Positions 7,225 through 16,700 of a stretch of 34,963 nucleotides of DNA are shown piece after piece. Position numbers and translations under genes: made by a program. The stretch comes from Deltaproteobacteria bacterium (GTDB lineage Bacteria > Myxococcota_A > Polyangia > Haliangiales > Haliangiaceae). The stretch covers positions 1-34,963 of the forward strand of contig JAFAOG010000300.1 of NCBI GenBank assembly GCA_019237945.1, in the 5' to 3' direction. The notes below the pieces were generated by a model. That model ran no database searches, was not told where the DNA came from, and saw only the letters and a list, made by a program, of their open reading frames with translations. Each line of letters opens with the position of its first letter. The first letter of the stretch is position 1.

Positions 7225-8625
7225 ATGCGCATCCGTTTCGATCGTGGAACCCTCGTGCTCGACCGCGTCGAGCCGGGCCTCGCCCCCGGCATCCTCGACG
7301 CTGCGAGCTGGGATTCCGAGCTCTGCGCCTGGCGCATGCCGGCCTCCTCGCTGTCCGACCTCCGCGTCCGACTCGCGGACAATGCCGTCCGCTCGACGGA
7401 CATGATCGCGCCCGACGCCCTCCCCGCGCCGCTCGCCCACCCGCCGCTGCGCTGGTACCAGCAAGCCGCGCTCGATGCCTGGCTCGCCGCCTCCGCGCGA
7501 GGCGTCATCGCGCTGCCGACCGGCGCGGGCAAGACGCTCGCCGCGCTCGCCGCGATCAACGCGCTGCGCGTGGCGACGCTGATCCTCGTACCGACGCGAG
7601 TGTTGCTCGATCAGTGGGCGCGCACGCTCGAGGCCTACACGCCGGGGCCGGTCGGCCGGCTTGGCGACAACGTCCATCGCGTCGAGGCGCTGACCGTCTC
7701 GACGTACGCGTCCGCACTCACCTGGGCGCCGCGCATCGGCGATCGCTTCGGGCTGGTCGTCGTCGACGAGGCGCACCACGTCGGCGGCTGGTGCCCGTAC
7801 GAGGTGCTCGAGATGCTGGTGGCGCCCGCGCGCCTCGGACTGACCGCCACGCCGCCGTCCGGCGCAACGGCAACGCTGCTCGACGCGCACGTCGGCCCCA
7901 CGATCTATTCGATCTCGATCCCCGAGCTCGCGGGCGACGCCCTCGCCCCGTTCGACGCGATCACGATCCCGCTCTCGCTCACGCCCGACGAGCGCACGCT
8001 CTACCGCACGCACCGCGCCGTCTTCGCGGCCGCGTACGGTGAATTCCAGCGGCGCCAACCCGGTGCGTCGTGGCAAGACTTCACGGCCGCCGCCTTCCGC
8101 ACCGCGCGCGGCCGCGCCGCCCTCACCGCCTGGCGCGCCGCCCGCACCGTCCTCGCGTACCCCGCCGCCAAGCGAACCGCGCTCCGCGATCTGCTCGCCC
8201 AGCACGCGACCGACCGCATCCTCGTCTTCACGCCGGACAACGCCACGGCCTACGCGATCGCGCGCGAGCTGCTCGTCGTCCCGATCACGGCCGACATCAA
8301 GCGCGTCGAACGCGCCCGCATGCTCGAGCGCTTCCGCTCCGGCGACGCGCCGGTGCTCGTCTCGTCGCAAGTGCTGGACGAAGGCCTCGACGTCCCGGAA
8401 GCCGACATCGCGATCATCGTCGGCGGCTCGGGCTCCGAGCGCCGCCACACCCAGCGCATCGGGCGCGTCCTGCGCCCGCGGCCGAACAAACGCGCCGTGA
8501 TCTACGAGCTCGCGATCACCGGCTCGACGGAGATCGATCAGCTCGCGCGCCGCAACCACGCGCTCGCCGCCGACGTCATCACGCGCAACGCGCACGCCCG
8601 CACGAACGCAGAGGCCACGCCATGA
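7225..8625 (+). CDS. XPB-type superfamily 2 DNA helicase
   Basis: The protein has 466 residues. The ATG at 7225 is chosen because MRIRFDRGTLVL matches the N-terminus of archaeal XPB. An in-frame TTG at 7207 is less likely. Motifs in order: Q-like LRWYQ (75-79), Walker A PTGAGKT (98-104), DEAH (181-184), GLTATP (205-210), DEGLDVPEADIAIIVGGSGS (385-404) and QRIGRVLRP (410-418). The order and the wording of the last block are those of XPB, not of UvrB, RecG or RecQ. The RED motif that follows motif III in characterised XPB is replaced here by PPSGAT. It overlaps the Bax1-like nuclease gene by ATGA, matching the archaeal xpb-bax1 pairing. Role inferred: DNA repair translocase. Confidence 0.9.
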   Translation: MRIRFDRGTLVLDRVEPGLAPGILDAASWDSELCAWRMPASSLSDLRVRLADNAVRSTDMIAPDALPAPLAHPPLRWYQQAALDAWLAASARGVIALPTGAGKTLAALAAINALRVATLILVPTRVLLDQWARTLEAYTPGPVGRLGDNVHRVEALTVSTYASALTWAPRIGDRFGLVVVDEAHHVGGWCPYEVLEMLVAPARLGLTATPPSGATATLLDAHVGPTIYSISIPELAGDALAPFDAITIPLSLTPDERTLYRTHRAVFAAAYGEFQRRQPGASWQDFTAAAFRTARGRAALTAWRAARTVLAYPAAKRTALRDLLAQHATDRILVFTPDNATAYAIARELLVVPITADIKRVERARMLERFRSGDAPVLVSSQVLDEGLDVPEADIAIIVGGSGSERRHTQRIGRVLRPRPNKRAVIYELAITGSTEIDQLARRNHALAADVITRNAHARTNAEATP

Positions 8626-10139
8626 CCGCCCGGACGATTCCGCCCGCGCCGCTGAATGCGCAAGACGAGCGAGCCACGCATCTCCCGACGAACCCGCCCG
8701 GTCCGCACGCGCGCACGCGCCGCATCATCACGGTGCCGCCGCGCCCGCCTTGCCGAGCCGACGAGCCGGCCGCGCGCGGCCCGCGCACGCTACCGCTGCT
8801 CGGCGCCGATGACCTCGCGTGGGTCGGCGAGCTGACGGACGCGGTGGTCGGCCTCGCGGGCCAGCCGTGGCGCATCGCGCTCGACATGATCGAGAGTGGC
8901 GAATGGCGCGCGCCGCCGCGCGAGAGCTCATCGGACGAGCCGTCGTCGGGCGCGCCGCAGCCGTCGCCGCGCGACATCTCGCCTCGGCTGCTCGTCGCCG
9001 CGACCTCCGCGCTACGCCGTCTGCTCGTCGGCCGTCCCCACGAGGCGGACCTCGCGCGCAAGGCGCGCTCGCTGCTGCTCGGCCCACCCGCGCTCGACGA
9101 TGCCACGCGCGCGACGCGGGTCGATTCGGTCGCCGCGCTCCTCGCGATCCCGCCGGCGAGGCTGGAGCGCGTCCTGTGGTCAGACGTGCCGCGCGAGCGG
9201 CCGATCGAGCTGCTGCGCGGGCGCCCGACGGCGACCGAGGTCGCCGCAGTCGCGAACGTCAGCCTGCTGCAGCGCGCGCTCGCCCGTGCGCGTGCGGTCG
9301 AGCTCGTGATCCGCGGGGACGCCAGCCCGATCCTGCGCGGCGCGGCCGCGCGCGGGCTGATCGTGACCGCCTCGGAGCGCGATGCCGACGGCCCCGGCGC
9401 GACCCCTCACGACGTCGCCGCACCCGCCGGCCGTACGCGCGACCTACGCGACGCGCCCGACGCGCCCGACGCGCCCGACGCGCCCGCCGGCAGTACGCAC
9501 GACGTGCAACTGCGCGAGACCGTGCTCGACATCGTCGGTCCGCTCGCGCTCTGCCACGGCACCGCGGTCTACGGCCGCGCACTCGGCACGCTCGTGCCGC
9601 TGCTCGCGAGCTGCGACAGCTTCGCGCTGACGATCCGCGCCGAGGCGCGCGGCAACGCGTACGAGCTGCGGGTCGACGCGCCCGCGCTGCTGCCGGCGAG
9701 CGCACGGCGCCCGTGGGCCCTGGTCGAACGCCTCGCCGCCGACCTCGAGTCTCTCGCCGAGGAGCTCGAGCTCCGCGGTGGCCCACCGGTTCGAGTGCGG
9801 CGCGCGCCACCCGCGCTCGCGGAGCGCGCGACCAGACCCGGCGTTGGCGCGACCACATCGACGGACGCGCGCCGCGGCGTGCTCGCGTGTCCCGACCTCG
9901 GCATCCAGATCGGCGACCGCATGGTCTGGGTCGAGGTCGTCGGGTTCTGGACGCCCGAGTACCTCGCGCGCAAGCTCGCGCGCTATCGCGCGGTCGGCGC
10001 GGCGGAGGTCGTCCTGTGCGTCGACATGACGCGCGCGTGCGACGACGACGATCCGCCGCCCGGCGCATGCGTGATGCGCTACGAGCGACGGATGCACGCC
10101 GAACCACTGCTCCAGCTGCTCGGCGTCGTCATGGCCTGA
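8622..10139 (+). CDS. Bax1-type nuclease (DUF790), partner of XPB
   Basis: The protein has 505 residues. Residues 55-260 resemble the N-terminal and central part of Bax1, ending in the helix pair FDUF790-like SLLQRALARARAVELVI (214-230). Residues 415-470 hold a PD-(D/E)xK-type nuclease core: CPDLGIQIGDRMVWVEVVGF, then WTPEYLARKLARYR. The putative catalytic residues are D425, E438 and K451. The wording EVVGFWTPEYL..KL is the diagnostic DUF790 signature. Archaeal Bax1 binds XPB and cuts 3' of bubbles; the overlapping XPB gene supports the same complex here. Unusual: residues 1-55 are a basic Pro-rich extension, and 250-295 are low complexity with (DAP)n. It is longer than most family members I know. 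Confidence 0.88.
   Translation: MTARTIPPAPLNAQDERATHLPTNPPGPHARTRRIITVPPRPPCRADEPAARGPRTLPLLGADDLAWVGELTDAVVGLAGQPWRIALDMIESGEWRAPPRESSSDEPSSGAPQPSPRDISPRLLVAATSALRRLLVGRPHEADLARKARSLLLGPPALDDATRATRVDSVAALLAIPPARLERVLWSDVPRERPIELLRGRPTATEVAAVANVSLLQRALARARAVELVIRGDASPILRGAAARGLIVTASERDADGPGATPHDVAAPAGRTRDLRDAPDAPDAPDAPAGSTHDVQLRETVLDIVGPLALCHGTAVYGRALGTLVPLLASCDSFALTIRAEARGNAYELRVDAPALLPASARRPWALVERLAADLESLAEELELRGGPPVRVRRAPPALAERATRPGVGATTSTDARRGVLACPDLGIQIGDRMVWVEVVGFWTPEYLARKLARYRAVGAAEVVLCVDMTRACDDDDPPPGACVMRYERRMHAEPLLQLLGVVMA
9450..9485 (+). repeat. Four tandem copies of a 9-bp unit in the Bax1-like gene
   Basis: GACGCGCCC is repeated four times and encodes Asp-Ala-Pro four times. It lies in the linker between the central and nuclease domains. 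Copy number could vary without frame loss. Confidence 0.85.
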
Positions 10140-10165: not shown

Positions 10166-10471
10166 TTACAGCTTCTTGCTGACCGTGTCGTGCGTCGAGC
10201 CGTCGATGAAGAACGGCGCCGCCTTCGCGATCAGCTTGTGGTAGTCGGGGTCGCCCAGCGTCTGACCGAGCGCCTTCTCGACGGCGCCGAGGTCGGCGAA
10301 GTCGATCGACCACCGGATCACGCCGCTCTTGCCGAACGCGTCGAACCACACCGACACCGGCGGCAGGCTGTACTTCTTCTCGACGAAGCCGGCGGCTTCC
10401 TTCGCCCACGAGATGGCTTCCGGAAAGTGCCCCTGGCTGATCTGTGCACTCCGCGTCCAACGAACACTCAT
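10166..10471 (-). CDS. Small protein of dimeric alpha/beta-barrel (ferredoxin-like) type, unknown function
   Basis: The protein has 101 residues. The pattern beta-strand (MSVRWTRSA), helix (AISWAKEAAGFVEKKY), strands (VSVWFDAFG, GVIRWSIDFAD), helix (AVEKALGQTLGDPDYHKLIAKAAPF) resembles stress-responsive/NIPSNAP-like dimeric alpha/beta-barrel proteins. A strong Shine-Dalgarno (GGGAGG) lies about 7 nt before the ATG. The ATG overlaps the stop of the HUH-protein gene upstream (ATGA). I infer the fold by eye only; no enzymatic residues are evident. It converges with the Bax1-like gene, 26 bp between stops. Confidence 0.65.
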   Translation of the reverse strand: MSVRWTRSAQISQGHFPEAISWAKEAAGFVEKKYSLPPVSVWFDAFGKSGVIRWSIDFADLGAVEKALGQTLGDPDYHKLIAKAAPFFIDGSTHDTVSKKL

Positions 10472-11349
10472 GTTCTTCCCTCCCTTTCACCGACCGACGC
10501 CGTGCCGGTCGCTCGACGATCGCTGTAGCGCCGCCGCGCTGCGCGCTCAAGCGGGAGTGGCGAGAGACCGAGCGCACGCAATGCGTCTGATGCTGCTGTC
10601 CCACGCTGCCTGTCTGTTCGTTTGCCCGGGACTTCGTGCGGATCGATGAGACCGTACATCCGCCAGCCAACGGTCAACAGCCAGCTCGCCGCGCGGCGAA
10701 CGGGTAGCGGCTCGTACGTCGGCGGCCAGCTCTCGCGAATCGGCCGCGCCCAGCCATCGAAGCTCGGCGCGCTCGAGAACGGATCGATCGCGAAGCCGCG
10801 CAGCTCGGGCACCCGGTCTTCGTTGTGGCGACGCCAGTTGTTGAGCACGTAGCTCCACGCATGCCGCGCCTGCCGACGGTTCGTGATGACCTCTTCGTTG
10901 TAGCGGTCCGTGAACACGCAACCCCGTCGACGGTCCTTGAAGGAAAGCCCGCGCCACTTCGAGTACACCGCGTTGAGGCGTTTCGCCGCCGAGATCTGGA
11001 ACGCCTGCATGCCACGCGCAAGCGCGAGCTTGTCGTGTGCCTCGACGAGCAGATGCACGTGCGACTGTTCGATACTGATGCCGACGATCCGGAAGTTCGC
11101 GCGGCGGTACACGCAGACCATTGCCTGACGCAGCGCCCGGTACGTATCGAGCGTGCGCAGGACGTGCAGCACCTGAACAACGCGGAGGGTGACGTGCACC
11201 GGCGTTGACTTCGTGACCTTCGGCCGCGCGCGGTGTGGCTCGCTCGCACGATAGCGCCCAGGCGTGATCCGCCGGCCGGCACGCGCACGCTTGCCGCCAC
11301 GCTGCTTGAACAGCGACTGCTGGATGTGGCGCTTGCGCGGCCTCGCCAT
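10468..11349 (-). CDS. REP-associated (Y1/HUH) transposase-like protein, catalytic Tyr not evident
   Basis: The protein has 293 residues; the ATG at 11349 gives the typical basic start MARPRKRH. The HUH signature is ISIEQSHVHLLVEA (91-104; H97 and H99). It is followed by MQAFQISAAKRLN, GCVFTDRYNEEVITN and AWSYVLNNWRRH (164-175), the usual block order of Y1_Tnp proteins. At the place where active enzymes have the nucleophilic Tyr (LxxxYxxxxN helix) I read Ala. This matches the single-copy, probably domesticated branch common in Myxococcota. The C-terminal ~25 residues are Arg-rich and extend to overlap the next gene by ATGA. It is not flanked by recognisable terminal repeats. Function unknown. 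Confidence 0.78.
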   Translation of the reverse strand: MARPRKRHIQQSLFKQRGGKRARAGRRITPGRYRASEPHRARPKVTKSTPVHVTLRVVQVLHVLRTLDTYRALRQAMVCVYRRANFRIVGISIEQSHVHLLVEAHDKLALARGMQAFQISAAKRLNAVYSKWRGLSFKDRRRGCVFTDRYNEEVITNRRQARHAWSYVLNNWRRHNEDRVPELRGFAIDPFSSAPSFDGWARPIRESWPPTYEPLPVRRAASWLLTVGWRMYGLIDPHEVPGKRTDRQRGTAASDALRALGLSPLPLERAARRRYSDRRATGTASVGEREGRT

Positions 11350-11354
11350 AGGGG

Positions 11355-12201
11355 CATGGTGCGCTCGTCTCAACACATCGTCAAGTATGAATGCGCCGAT
11401 ATTTTTAGTTCGAGGGGCGTCTGCCCGCCGAGCGCGCCGGGCGGGCGGTTGTGGTTGTCGTAGTTCTCCCACTCGCGCACTTCTTGTTCGCCAGGTGGAT
11501 GTCGTCGCTGATGCCGCCCTTGTCGAGCAGGCGATAGAGCTCGTCGTTGTCGATGCGATGCGAGCGCTCGACCTTGCCGTCGAGGCGCGGCGTGCGCGGG
11601 CGAATGCGCACGTGGCGGATATCGAGCTTCTCGAGGTGCCAGTGGAAGTGCGATCCGAACTCGGACCCGTTGTCTGTTTGCACAACCTGGACGCGAAACG
11701 GTAGGCGGCGGATGACCTCGTTCGCGAAGTCTACCGACGAGGTCTGGTTGCAGGCGTCGTAAATCTTCAGGACGCGGATCCGGGTGCAGTCGTCGATGGC
11801 GGTGAACTGATACAGCCGCTTCCTCGTCCCCGGGATGCGCTCGAGGAACTTCACGTCCATCTGCAACCGATGGCCGGGCTGCGGCTTCTCGTAGCGCTGC
11901 CAGCGCTTGCCGTGAGGCTTGTGCTTCTGGTTGGTCGGCAGTTAGGTAGTCGCGAATTCTGCCGGCGCCGAAGTGGTAGTTCTGGCGCAGGTACAGAACC
12001 TTCGAGACCACCGTGCGGGGCGTCGTTCCGAAGAAGCGACACGTGGCAGCAACGTTATCGATGCGCTTCGCATGCTCCAGGAACTTGGACCTGAACGCGA
12101 CCAGTCGAAGCTGTTCACCCTTGGTCATCGGCGGGCTCTATTTTTCCCCGAAGCACGCCTCCGGGACCTGTTACCCGTCTCCCCAGATTTCACACACCAT
12201 G
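11355..12201 (-). mobile_element. Decayed DDE insertion sequence (IS481/IS3-like)
   Basis: This is the approximate extent of an insertion-sequence remnant containing the broken transposase 11370-12128. CATGGTGCG at 11355-11363 and the inverted CATGGTGTG at 12193-12201 match in 8 of 9 positions and could be eroded terminal repeats. No target-site duplication was found. Ends are uncertain; the left one runs close to the HUH-protein start. Confidence 0.5.
11370..12128 (-). pseudogene. Transposase pseudogene, DDE type (IS481-like), deleted and frameshifted
   Basis: Three reading-frame pieces on the minus strand make one transposase. The N-terminal piece (12128 to about 11945) holds a helix-turn-helix (NVAATCRFFGTTPRTVV) and ends at YHFGAGRIRDYL. 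Sequence then jumps to LPTNQKHKPHGKRW in another frame, so about 25-30 residues that normally link these blocks are missing. The core piece (about 11940-11485) has DVKFLERIPGT, AIDDCTRIRVLK and VQTDNGSEFGSHF with DDE residues, and HRIDNDELYRLL. Near 11485 a 1-nt shift moves to VREWENYDNHNRPPGALGGQTPLEL, the typical C-terminus, ending at 11370. It is not functional as it stands. Confidence 0.85.
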
Positions 12202-12546: not shown

Positions 12547-13021
<475 letters not shown>

Positions 13022-13044
<23 letters not shown>

Positions 13045-13735
13045 CGCCGTCGCCTTTGATTCGGGGTTTGGAGGAGGGCTCGTCGTCGGCCGTGCGCTTG
13101 CCTCGCGAGGGTTGCGAGTCGGAGGGCGGGTCGAGGAGGAGCTCGAGGAACTCGTCGGTGAGGAGCTTCATCTCCGTCGCGATTCGGTTCGCGCGCTGCG
13201 AGAAGAAGTTGAAGAAGACGACCGACATCACGGCGACCAGGATGCCGACCGCCGTGACGATCAGGGCTTCGGAGATCGGGCCGGAGACCTGGGCGAACTT
13301 GACCTCGTCCTCGCCGTGGAACTGGCCCATCGCCTTCATGATGCCGACGACGGTTCCGAACAGACCGACGAACGGGGCGGTGGCGCCGACCGTGCCGAGG
13401 ACCCACATGCGGGCGCGCAGGTCCTGGTTGACGCGGAGGCGCTCGCGGTGGACCGCGGTGACGACGTGCTCGGGCTTGGAGCGGTTGAGGCGTTCGTAGC
13501 CGACGAGGAAGACGTCGGCGATCGGCGAGGGGGAGCGCTCGCACGCGGAGCGGCCTTCTTCGAGGGCGCCTCGCGAGAGGCAGCGGGTGACGGTGTCGCC
13601 CAGGGCGCGCGCGCGGGTGACGAAGGACCACTGGGCGATCGCGCGCTCGATGGCGACGGCCAGCGCGACGACCGAGAACCCGAGGATCGTCCAGAATGCG
13701 ACGGCTACTACGCTGAATTCCCAGAGCTGATCCAT
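13022..13735 (-). CDS. exbB: MotA/TolQ/ExbB-family proton channel protein
   Basis: The protein has 237 residues, with start ATG at 13735 preceded by GAGG 7 nt upstream. There are three membrane helices at about 10-32, 112-133 and 155-178. The family signature GTVGATAPFVGLFGTVVGIMKAM spans 114-136, and the third helix has ISEALIVTAVGILVAV. The cytoplasmic loop (40-105) is of the usual size. The C-terminal ~35 residues are charged and disordered and overlap the exbD start. With ExbD it forms the proton-driven inner-membrane motor. It could equally be called TolQ. The two-gene layout without TonB is common in Myxococcota. Confidence 0.92.
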
Positions 13736-13766
13736 GCAGTACCTCGGTCTGTGATAGCACGCCTCG

Positions 13767-16700
13767 CTAGGGCGCAAACGGGGCTCGGTAGCCCCCGCCA
13801 TCGAAGTCTACGAAAATCGGCGCCGTCACGGCTTCGGCCGAGATGCCATGTCCCGTGAGGGCCGTATCGATCGTCGCGCGGTCGCCCGTGAGGAGCGCGG
13901 GCATCGTCGTGTCAGAGATGGTGTCGCCCTTGGGCAAGATCGGGAAAATGCCGCGATCACCGCGGGCGCGGAAGACGAGCCAGGCATCTTTGCCGGTCGC
14001 GCCCGCGCGCGTCGTGATGTCGCTCGCGTCGAGCGTGACGGTGACCGTCGCTTCGTAGCGCTTGAAGCCGCCGCCGCCGGGGAGCGTCGCGAGGTTGACC
14101 GTCATCGCCTCGGCGGCGAGCGACGCCTTGGCGCACGGGTCGTTCGCGTTGAACGAGGCGATCGTGCGCGACGTCCAGCACTTGAGCGGGATCAGGGCGG
14201 AGTCGGCGTCCTTGCCCTTGATCGCGTCCGGAGTCGTGTTCGCGAAGACCTCGAGCGTATCGAATGGCGCCCAGTCGGCGGAGATGATCGTGACCGTGAG
14301 CGTGACCGGCGCGCCGACCGACGGGATCTGGCGACCGATCGCCGGCTGGGTGCCGGACGTTACGCTGATCATCGGGCCGTCGGTGACGACGATGTCGCGC
14401 GCGGCCCCGCCGGCCCCGGTCTGCGTGGCGACGACCGCATCGACGGCCGTGCCGTCGGCGAGCGCGGCGGCGTTGTCGGAGGCGACGCGGACGTACGTGC
14501 GCGGCATGCCGAGCGGGTCGGCGACGGTCGTGTGGGTGTCGCTGTCGCCGGCCGGCGTGACGTAGAAGCCGAGCGAGAGCATCGAGAGCCAGTCGCGCAT
14601 CGTGCGATCGAGCTTGGTGTTCTCGCGCAGGCCGTCGTTGTTGGTGTCGGCCATGTTGAAGCCGTTCCAGATCTCGAGGCCCGTGAACTGATCGCTCCAC
14701 AGCGAGGTCTCGGGGAGGCGCAGCCAGTCGTTGGGGACGTCGGCGTGCTCGTAGTCGCCGAAGATCATCCGGTTCGTGAAGTCGAACTGCACGTTCGCGC
14801 GATCGAAGGCCGCCTGGAACTCGGTGAAGCTCGAGTCGCGCGGGTGGTTGACCTGCACCATCTTGCCGCCGCGCGCTCGCATCGCGTCGAAGATCTCGCC
14901 GGGCACCATCGCGAGGCCGTCGGTCGCGCCGCGGCCCCAGTCGATCGCACCGTGATTCGCGGACGAGTTGTCGGGCTGCATCGGCCAGCTGTTGAAGTGG
15001 CCGTACGGGAACGGCGTGACCTCGATGCCGGGGATGACGCGCAGCAGGTTCTGAGCGCCGAGCTGCTCGACGATCGGCTGCAGGTCGCTGACGTAGTCGT
15101 GATCCGTGACGGCGAACATCTCGACGCCCGCCGAGATCGCGCTCTTGACGCGCTCGAGCGAGCCGATCGGCGAGTCCGGAGAGCCGACCTGGTGAACGTG
15201 CCAGTCGGTCGCGTAGTAGCCGTCGGTCGGCACGACGTGCTTGAGGTGAAAGCCGAGGCTGACATCGGTCGCGCCGCTGACCGCGGCCGAGTCCGCCGAC
15301 CACTCGGTGCCGCGCGACGCATAGACGCGATAGGTGCCGCCCGCCGGCAGATAGAGCGGAGCGTCGGTGCCATCGCCGAGGTTGACGGTCGTGCCGCGGA
15401 TCGCGTGCTCCTGCGTGACGACGCCGCCCTGGCGATCCGCGACCTCGAACAGCCGCGCATCGGGGAACGCCGGGTGGTTGCCGACGACAAGCAGCCGGCC
15501 CGGAATCGGCGCGCTCGTATCCGCGTCGAGGATCTGGAAGTCGACCTTGATCGGCGAAGGCACGTTGAGGTTCACGACAGCGGCCTGGTTGGCGGGCGCG
15601 ACCGACATCGCCTCGGAGCGCCCGACATTCTTGACCTCGGCGCGCAGCAGGAGGTTGCCCAGGTTCGTGGGCACCTGGCCGCCGAACGTGCCGTCGGCCT
15701 TGACGTCGAAGTAGCTGATCGCGTGGTCGTCGGCGATGCCGTCATTGTCCATGTCGACGGTCGCGTCGTCGAGCACGCCGTTGTGGTTGCCGTCGACGAA
15801 CACGCCGACGCGCGCATCGGTGGCCGGGCCGCCGCCGGTGTAGGCGACCGTGCCCGTGACCGTCGAGAGCGTCTCGCCGTTGCCGGTGCGCCACGCCGCG
15901 TCGATGTCGCTCGCGTCGTGACCGACGACGACGTCGTAGCGCTGCAGCACGCCCTTGCCGCGCTTGAGGTGCAGGAAGTACTTGTCCTTCTGCAGGATGT
16001 CAAGGAGCGCGTCGTTGCCGTCGAGGATGATCGAGACGCCGGCGATCAGCGCCTGCGTGTGCGTCGTCGGCGTGTCGTGGCGCGGGATGATGCCGTACGC
16101 GACGCCCGGGCCTTGATAGACGGTGTAGTCGCTCGGCTGCGGCTTGCTCAGCGTCGCGAGCGCGCCGATGTCGGCCTCCTGGAAGCCGAACGTGTTCGTC
16201 CACGCGTGGGTCTCGCCGCCGGTATCGGCGATCGTGCCCATCGGGCCGGCGATGTCGTCGGCGCCGGCGTTGAACAGCGAGTGATAGACCTGGAGCGTCG
16301 TCGAGTCGGGCTCGAGCACGTAGGTCGTCGCGCACTCGACGCCGTCGTCGATATCGGGATCGACATCCGCCGTGATCGGCAACAGCCCGATGCCCTTGAT
16401 GTTGATGAAGTCGTCGTTGCCGCTCTTGCCGGTCGCGCGAATGACGGCGACGCCGCCCTTGCTACCATCGCGCACGATCTCGATCTTGTCGGGCTCGCAC
16501 GTGCGGCCGAGCAGGTAGATCAGACCGAGCTCGCCGAAGTGGTCGTCGGTCACCTGGTGGCCGGCGCCGTCGATCAGCGCCGCGTCGACGAGGTTGCCGC
16601 CCTGCGGGATCACGCCGATCACGCGCGCCGGCGCCTGGATGATGAACGACGCCTTCGCGTTGCGCATGTAGAAGTCGCCGACGAGGCCGCTCTGCGCGGG

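Follow-up and report, generated by a model that had tools for sequence, protein, structure and literature searches.

The window analysed here comprises positions 1 to 34,963 of contig JAFAOG010000300.1, from the assembly of a Deltaproteobacteria bacterium of the family Haliangiaceae (GCA_019237945.1; 8.1 Mb in 632 contigs, completeness 93.95%, contamination 4.92%). At positions 7225..10139 it carries a gene for an XPB-type superfamily 2 (SF2) helicase and one for a protein of the DUF790/Bax1 family, which together form a bacterial XPB-Bax1 module joined by a stop/start overlap. The helicase gene runs from an ATG at 7225 to a TGA at 8623-8625, and the Bax1 gene from an ATG at 8622 to a stop codon ending at 10139. 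An [A/G]TGA junction links the two genes at all 14 loci examined in the genus (16 genomes, this one included), a count that omits G008, whose pair is split over two contigs, and a misbinned contig, G001:C302. The initial annotation had proposed both protein families, the overlap and these coordinates, and all of them held. The features of the pair, all on the plus strand, are:

7225..8625, plus strand: XPB-type SF2 helicase, 466 aa (Pfam profiles, PDB match, motifs)
7231..7401, plus strand: XPB damage-recognition domain (DRD; PF18458), residues 3-59 (31.3 bits, cut-off 26)
8622..8625, plus strand: ATGA stop/start overlap, reading ccATGAcc
8622..10139, plus strand: Bax1/DUF790 protein, 505 aa (DUF790 profile, PDB match, structural model)
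8622..8780, plus strand: N-terminal extension of Bax1, about 53 aa, modelled as largely disordered (predicted local distance difference test, pLDDT, < 50 at residues 1-45)
8781..9287, plus strand: N-terminal domain (NTD) of Bax1, XPB-binding in archaea; limits approximate (alignment, model)
9288..9677, plus strand: Cas2-like domain (CRD) with an unordered low-complexity insert in its middle; limits approximate (alignment, model)
9450..9485, plus strand: four in-frame copies of GACGCGCCC (Asp-Ala-Pro), read as DAPDAPDAPDAP, in the insert (sequence, model)
9702..10136, plus strand: PD-(D/E)XK nuclease (NUS) domain, first motif lost, fold mostly confident (alignment, model)
9723..9725, plus strand: V368 at the position of E275 of A. 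fulgidus Bax1 (AfBax1), FDSxxE lost (alignment)
9894..9896, plus strand: D425, counterpart of AfBax1 D305, kept (alignment)
9933..9935, plus strand: E438, counterpart of AfBax1 E318, kept (alignment)

Besides XPB_DRD, the helicase matches the Pfam models ResIII, Helicase_C and ERCC3_RAD25_C (50.5 bits, cut-off 27), and its match to XPB in the PDB has an E-value of 8.7e-77. SF2 motifs I, II, III, V and VI are all present (PTGAGKT, VVVDEAHH, RLGLTATP, SQVLDEGLDVP and QRIGRVLR), so that by sequence comparison XPB keeps its ATPase motifs together with the DRD. Across the 14 genus rows of a 73-row XPB survey, these motifs were found in 13, 12, 13, 11 and 14 rows, respectively; the G003 XPB runs into a contig end and the G015 XPB is split over two reading frames. 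The RED motif, on which DNA contact by S. tokodaii XPB depends, is not found in the window XPB, where PPSGATATLL follows TAT instead. An R-x-D within 10 residues after the TAT of motif III occurs in 22 of the 73 rows; the 13 genus rows covering that region all lack it, and among L056-L098 only L056 has it. Loss of RED as a trait of the genus was rejected, as R-x-D is missing from 51 of the 73 rows, those from outside the genus included. Nor is its absence counted against XPB membership, because the protein is colinear with A. fulgidus XPB (AfXPB) over its whole length.

Bax1 matches DUF790 in two stretches (89.1 bits, cut-off 28.8), resembles PDB Bax1 with an E-value of 2.7e-7 and adopts the fold over its whole length in the model. 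Given the E-values, the PDB matches of both proteins and the coupling at every genus junction, a chance match can be excluded. Judged from alignment and model, Bax1 keeps the NTD, the Cas2-like domain and a folded PD-(D/E)XK domain; the repeat stretch of the insert has pLDDT < 50 at residues 264-266 and 268-294. In the NTD, D188 and E192 correspond to AfBax1 D133 and E135, a second proposed site that is also part of the XPB interface, the pairing of E135 with E192 depending on a two-residue gap in the PDB alignment. Both columns are invariant in the group of proteins described below as type II.

The nuclease site of type II Bax1

In a 67-row tree, 13 XPB rows of the genus group in a single clade (support 100/100), which leaves out only G012 and the misbinned contig. 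The clade splits into a pair of rows, G009 and a second contig of the window's own assembly, G000:C402 (99/95), and 11 rows that include the window (99/95). These 11, together with the Bax1 of G008, added because its gene neighbours are the same, are termed type II (n = 12: window, G001:C148, G002-G008 and G013-G015). The fetched contig of G008 has no XPB, which sits on another contig, and contig ends truncate the Bax1 proteins of G008 and G014. Residues of the NUS domain were compared between the 12 type II rows and 29 others, namely 26 comparators chosen by the authors plus C402, G009 and G012.

The acidic triad E275/D305/E318, numbered as in the available part of the AfBax1 study (PMC7293015), reads V368, D425 and E438 in the window, so that two of three acids are kept. 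The FDSxxE glutamate is found in 0/12 type II rows and in 28/29 of the others, the exception being L089. In type II, the E275 column holds A (6), V (2), P, I, R and T, and the whole FDSxxE block is gone from all 12 proteins. The window, G001, G007 and G014 have lost the acid of the REP motif as well. A Bax1 variant of this kind, with a lost first motif, is undescribed as far as the partly accessible literature reaches. Two trivial explanations were rejected. A frameshift does not account for the loss: GC content is lowest at codon position 2 in 11/11 gene blocks, none of the 12 type II proteins has the motif and the model shows a folded domain. ESLAE at residues 376-380 is not a displaced [DE]SxxE, as relatives anchor the helix on RLAxDL.

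XPB and Bax1 would bind and open distorted or forked DNA as a heterodimer, as in archaea; the type II nuclease would be inactive or strongly weakened, with Bax1 serving XPB mainly as its regulator and structural clamp, and other nucleases such as UvrABC would make any incision where the DNA is opened. UvrA, UvrB and UvrC all score over cut-off in the window's own genome, in agreement with the coexistence that the initial annotation had assumed, and do so in 14, 13 and 15 of the 16 genus genomes, respectively. That type II XPB-Bax1 works with little or no cutting by Bax1, incision being left to UvrABC, appears, from sequence comparison and analogy, about evenly poised between true and false. 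The narrower proposal, that Bax1 in this one myxobacterial lineage is a pseudo-nuclease, a non-catalytic partner that would hold XPB at forks and hand incision to UvrABC, is offered tentatively. The name helicase-nuclease, under which the pair had been annotated, is right for both families but may not fit the present activity, the first catalytic motif of Bax1 being lost.

Several observations weigh against such a loss of cutting. The D305 equivalent is Asp in 11/12 type II proteins (Glu in G003) and the E318 equivalent is kept in 12/12; no more than 11 of the 90 NUS columns reach an identity of 11/12 or better in type II, both of these among them. The motif-IV lysine is retained in 8/12, the window included, vs 29/29 of the others. 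A Glu stands one residue later in four type II proteins, including that of the window, and one residue earlier in a fifth, and the first-helix glutamate is missing from some PD-(D/E)XK enzymes. On the helicase side, a pattern search for motif V gave no match in the XPB of G002, G012 and G015 among the 14 genus rows. Finally, an altered first motif is, on sequence, not unique to type II, and its carriers outside the genus are not suspected to be dead.

The near-invariant acids would fit a still-catalytic two-acid site. The pair may be a canonical, active helicase-nuclease serving a second excision-repair route, in which D425 and E438, with K451, suffice for metal binding and the glutamate is dispensable. 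The retention of both acids while the surrounding domain diverges and the intact NUS fold of the model favour this alternative, whereas the conservation of the glutamate outside type II, the disappearance of the entire FDSxxE block and the loss of the REP-motif acid argue against it, as does the rate evidence given below. It is a real possibility, if one with less than even chances.

Outside the genus, a pattern search found FDSxxE in 75 of 96 classified proteins (duplicates dropped, eight loci skipped), PxE in 12 and neither in nine; of these nine, L101 shows DSLVE on visual inspection and L109 has GDEV. Many of the FDSxxE exceptions constitute a second myxobacterial subfamily; in the tree, the XPBs of three of its members, G060, G061 and G070, join the archaeal row. 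Two DUF790 matches, on separate contigs, occur in each of nine class-level genomes (G037, G039, G045, G053, G061, G069, G076, G081 and G087); in the three whose two copies were both inspected (G037, G053 and G076), one copy is canonical and the other has PxE or neither in place of FDSxxE. Within the genus there is a second, different loss: the type I Bax1 of G009 (L045, 7154-8335) keeps the Glu of the E275 column and has lost the PD segment.

Evolutionary rate and lineage

Mean pairwise identity in type II is 0.476 for the NTD, 0.504 for the CRD, 0.385 for NUS and 0.631 for XPB, vs 0.390, 0.475, 0.508 and 0.560, respectively, in a mixed comparator set. The identity of NUS surpasses that of the rest in 1/55 type II pairs vs 382/406 other pairs (157/170 for other pairs with XPB identity of 0.55-0.75), counts that are descriptive and not probabilities, the pairs not being independent. 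On one fixed topology of 38 rows (L074, L095 and G008 dropped), the ratio of branch length inside type II to that in the rest of the tree is 0.317 for XPB, 0.344 for the NTD, 0.402 for the CRD and 0.739 for NUS. Judged from these alignments, relaxed constraint is domain-specific: the nuclease domain of type II changes faster than the rest. This restriction to the nuclease domain speaks against an ordinary active enzyme.

Fast NUS evolution would also be expected if the nuclease gene were decaying towards loss and the pair had little function. The low-complexity inserts in Bax1, the XPB of G015 spread over two frames and a C-terminal end of the G006 Bax1 that is unlike the others point the same way, as does the fact that neither XPB nor DUF790 was found in the same two of 16 genus genomes (G010 and G011; 86-89% complete). 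The absence in these two may be only apparent, given their completeness and the state of the large gene beside exbBD, which is cut at a contig end in G010 and was not found in G011. Against decay, the reading frame runs uninterrupted through the kept acids in 12/12 type II Bax1 proteins, the NTD and CRD evolve about as fast as XPB, and coupling and synteny are conserved; the place of the D305 and E318 equivalents among the best-kept NUS columns speaks against full decay in particular. Decay is thus an improbable explanation. In type II, the XPB-binding part and the N-terminal acids are kept and a ligand of the C-terminal site is lost, which lets one ask which function of Bax1 selection retains.

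The second pair of the assembly, on C402 (L006, 2302-4889), is of type I. It shares with the window pair the XPB clade of the genus and the type of overlap (GTGA), but lies on another contig, has an intact E/D/E triad and REP motif, and has a lower GC content at third codon positions (0.745-0.779 vs 0.899-0.921). It may be a true paralogue or a contig from a sister species; contamination from one of the 15 other genus genomes lacks support, their DNA matching its XPB at 69% at best. A further candidate for a second genus pair, G001:C302, was rejected as a binning contaminant, its XPB being identical to that of a metagenome-assembled genome (MAG) of another family (GL140) from the same sample series. 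G001:C302 (L036/L066) and G037:C3 (L053/L068) have identical XPBs in MAGs of different families from one sample series, a case of binning contamination.

Neighbourhood and distribution

Downstream of the pair, on the minus strand, lie:

10468..12128, minus strand: IS200-like (Y1_Tnp) and rve transposase genes separating the pair from exbD, outside the module (Pfam, synteny)
12547..13801, minus strand: ExbD (12547-13044) and ExbB (13022-13801) (Pfam, synteny)

ExbD faces the pair in 10/12 type II loci, at a spacing of tens of bases to ~4 kb; the other two (G001:C148 and G014) reach a contig edge first. Beyond exbB, a gene of 1031 aa without a Pfam match is found in most loci whose contig extends there. 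TraB-type and FMN-reductase homologues stand beside XPB in both G014 and the window, after which the G014 contig ends, and on the short G001 contig no flank was matched. The exbBD loci of G009 and G012 lack the pair, and their XPB-Bax1 pairs are located elsewhere. Type II probably arose when the pair arrived beside exbBD in an ancestor inside the genus. In the window, a NIPSNAP-like gene between Bax1 and exbD scores 22.1 bits, just below the cut-off of 22.3. The rve part lies in a frame separate from a longer overlapping frame (11370-12128), and the rve gene may be broken.

These neighbours bear on the suggestion, made in the initial annotation, that the pair might be a defence system, which would degrade or block foreign DNA. 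The window XPB matches 32 PADLOC models, PbeA being the highest of the 25 listed (160.8 bits); these we take to be models of helicase-bearing proteins. Bax1 and six neighbours matched no PADLOC model. The conserved neighbours are ExbB, ExbD and the large gene without a Pfam match, and when the neighbours of 80 Bax1 loci (the best 80 of 158) were clustered, the largest cluster covered six loci. With the helicase alone matching among the eight proteins scanned and no pointer from the clustering, a defence island was rejected, and a defence role is very improbable.

DUF790 was found in 42 of the 95 genomes searched (the window's own included) and in 14 of 16 in the genus, where XPB occurs in the same 14. 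The Pfam model also matches in a bacterial control, Deinobacterium chartae. Across bacterial and archaeal genomes, 158 DUF790/Bax1 stretches were confirmed, the best 80 of which were retained for locus counts. By title, these 80 come from Myxococcota and other deltaproteobacteria, Rokuibacteriota, Planctomycetota, Cyanobacteria, Bdellovibrionota, Verrucomicrobia and others, and one archaeon. XPB is directly upstream of Bax1 in 62 of them. Among the other 18, XPB lies slightly further upstream in L095, L121 and L122, the Bax1 frames of L069 and L104 begin at a contig edge, and L098 is a short piece. No XPB frame (> 60 bits) was found in the retrieved DNA around L112 and L131 or around any of the 10 cyanobacterial loci (L100, L106, L114, L116, L123, L126, L128, L129, L134 and L135), whose FDSxxE/PD/E site is intact. 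The Bax1 of these cyanobacterial loci may be free of XPB or paired with it in trans. L087 is a pair on a contig titled as a Klebsiella pneumoniae MAG; its XPB groups with Planctomycetota and myxobacterial rows, and the title is probably wrong.

Comparison with known systems

XPB-Bax1 is a known kind of pair. The window XPB resembles that of the archaeal complexes (A. fulgidus 6P66; S. tokodaii 6P4F/6P4O/6P4W) in having a DRD and two helicase domains, and aligns with AfXPB over residues 5-446 without a large gap, a span that presumably includes the thumb. Bax1 likewise has the NTD, Cas2-like and NUS domains of its archaeal counterparts. Unlike theirs, the window pair is bacterial, its XPB lacks RED and its Bax1 has lost the FDSxxE glutamate and carries the insert and the N-terminal extension. 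According to the available parts of the archaeal studies, Bax1 binds XPB via its N-terminal domain, changes the XPB ATPase and encircles DNA together with XPB (PMC7293015; PMC7672443), and has been proposed to hold two cutting sites (PMC7293015).

In the available text of a 2005 survey, COG3372/DUF790 is a PD-(D/E)XK family usually found with COG1061 helicases in Archaea and Cyanobacteria (PMC1189080), whereas it is described here from Myxococcota and others, with one motif lost. The accessible part of a 2012 paper states that, up to then, no Bax1-type XPB complex had been identified in bacteria (PMC3353954). No report of bacterial XPB-Bax1 pairs was found by title or abstract opening, in a search that most subscription literature lies outside. 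XPB-Bax1 now emerges as a pair across several bacterial phyla, here alongside UvrABC. Mycobacterial XPB, as far as the same 2012 text describes it, is a bacterial XPB helicase too, with a different N-terminal domain and most likely without the thumb (PMC3353954). If type II Bax1 does not cut, it would provide a natural separation of XPB opening from Bax1 cutting, and a pseudo-nuclease Bax1 would parallel, independently and in bacteria, the non-cutting XPB partners in TFIIH/XPA.
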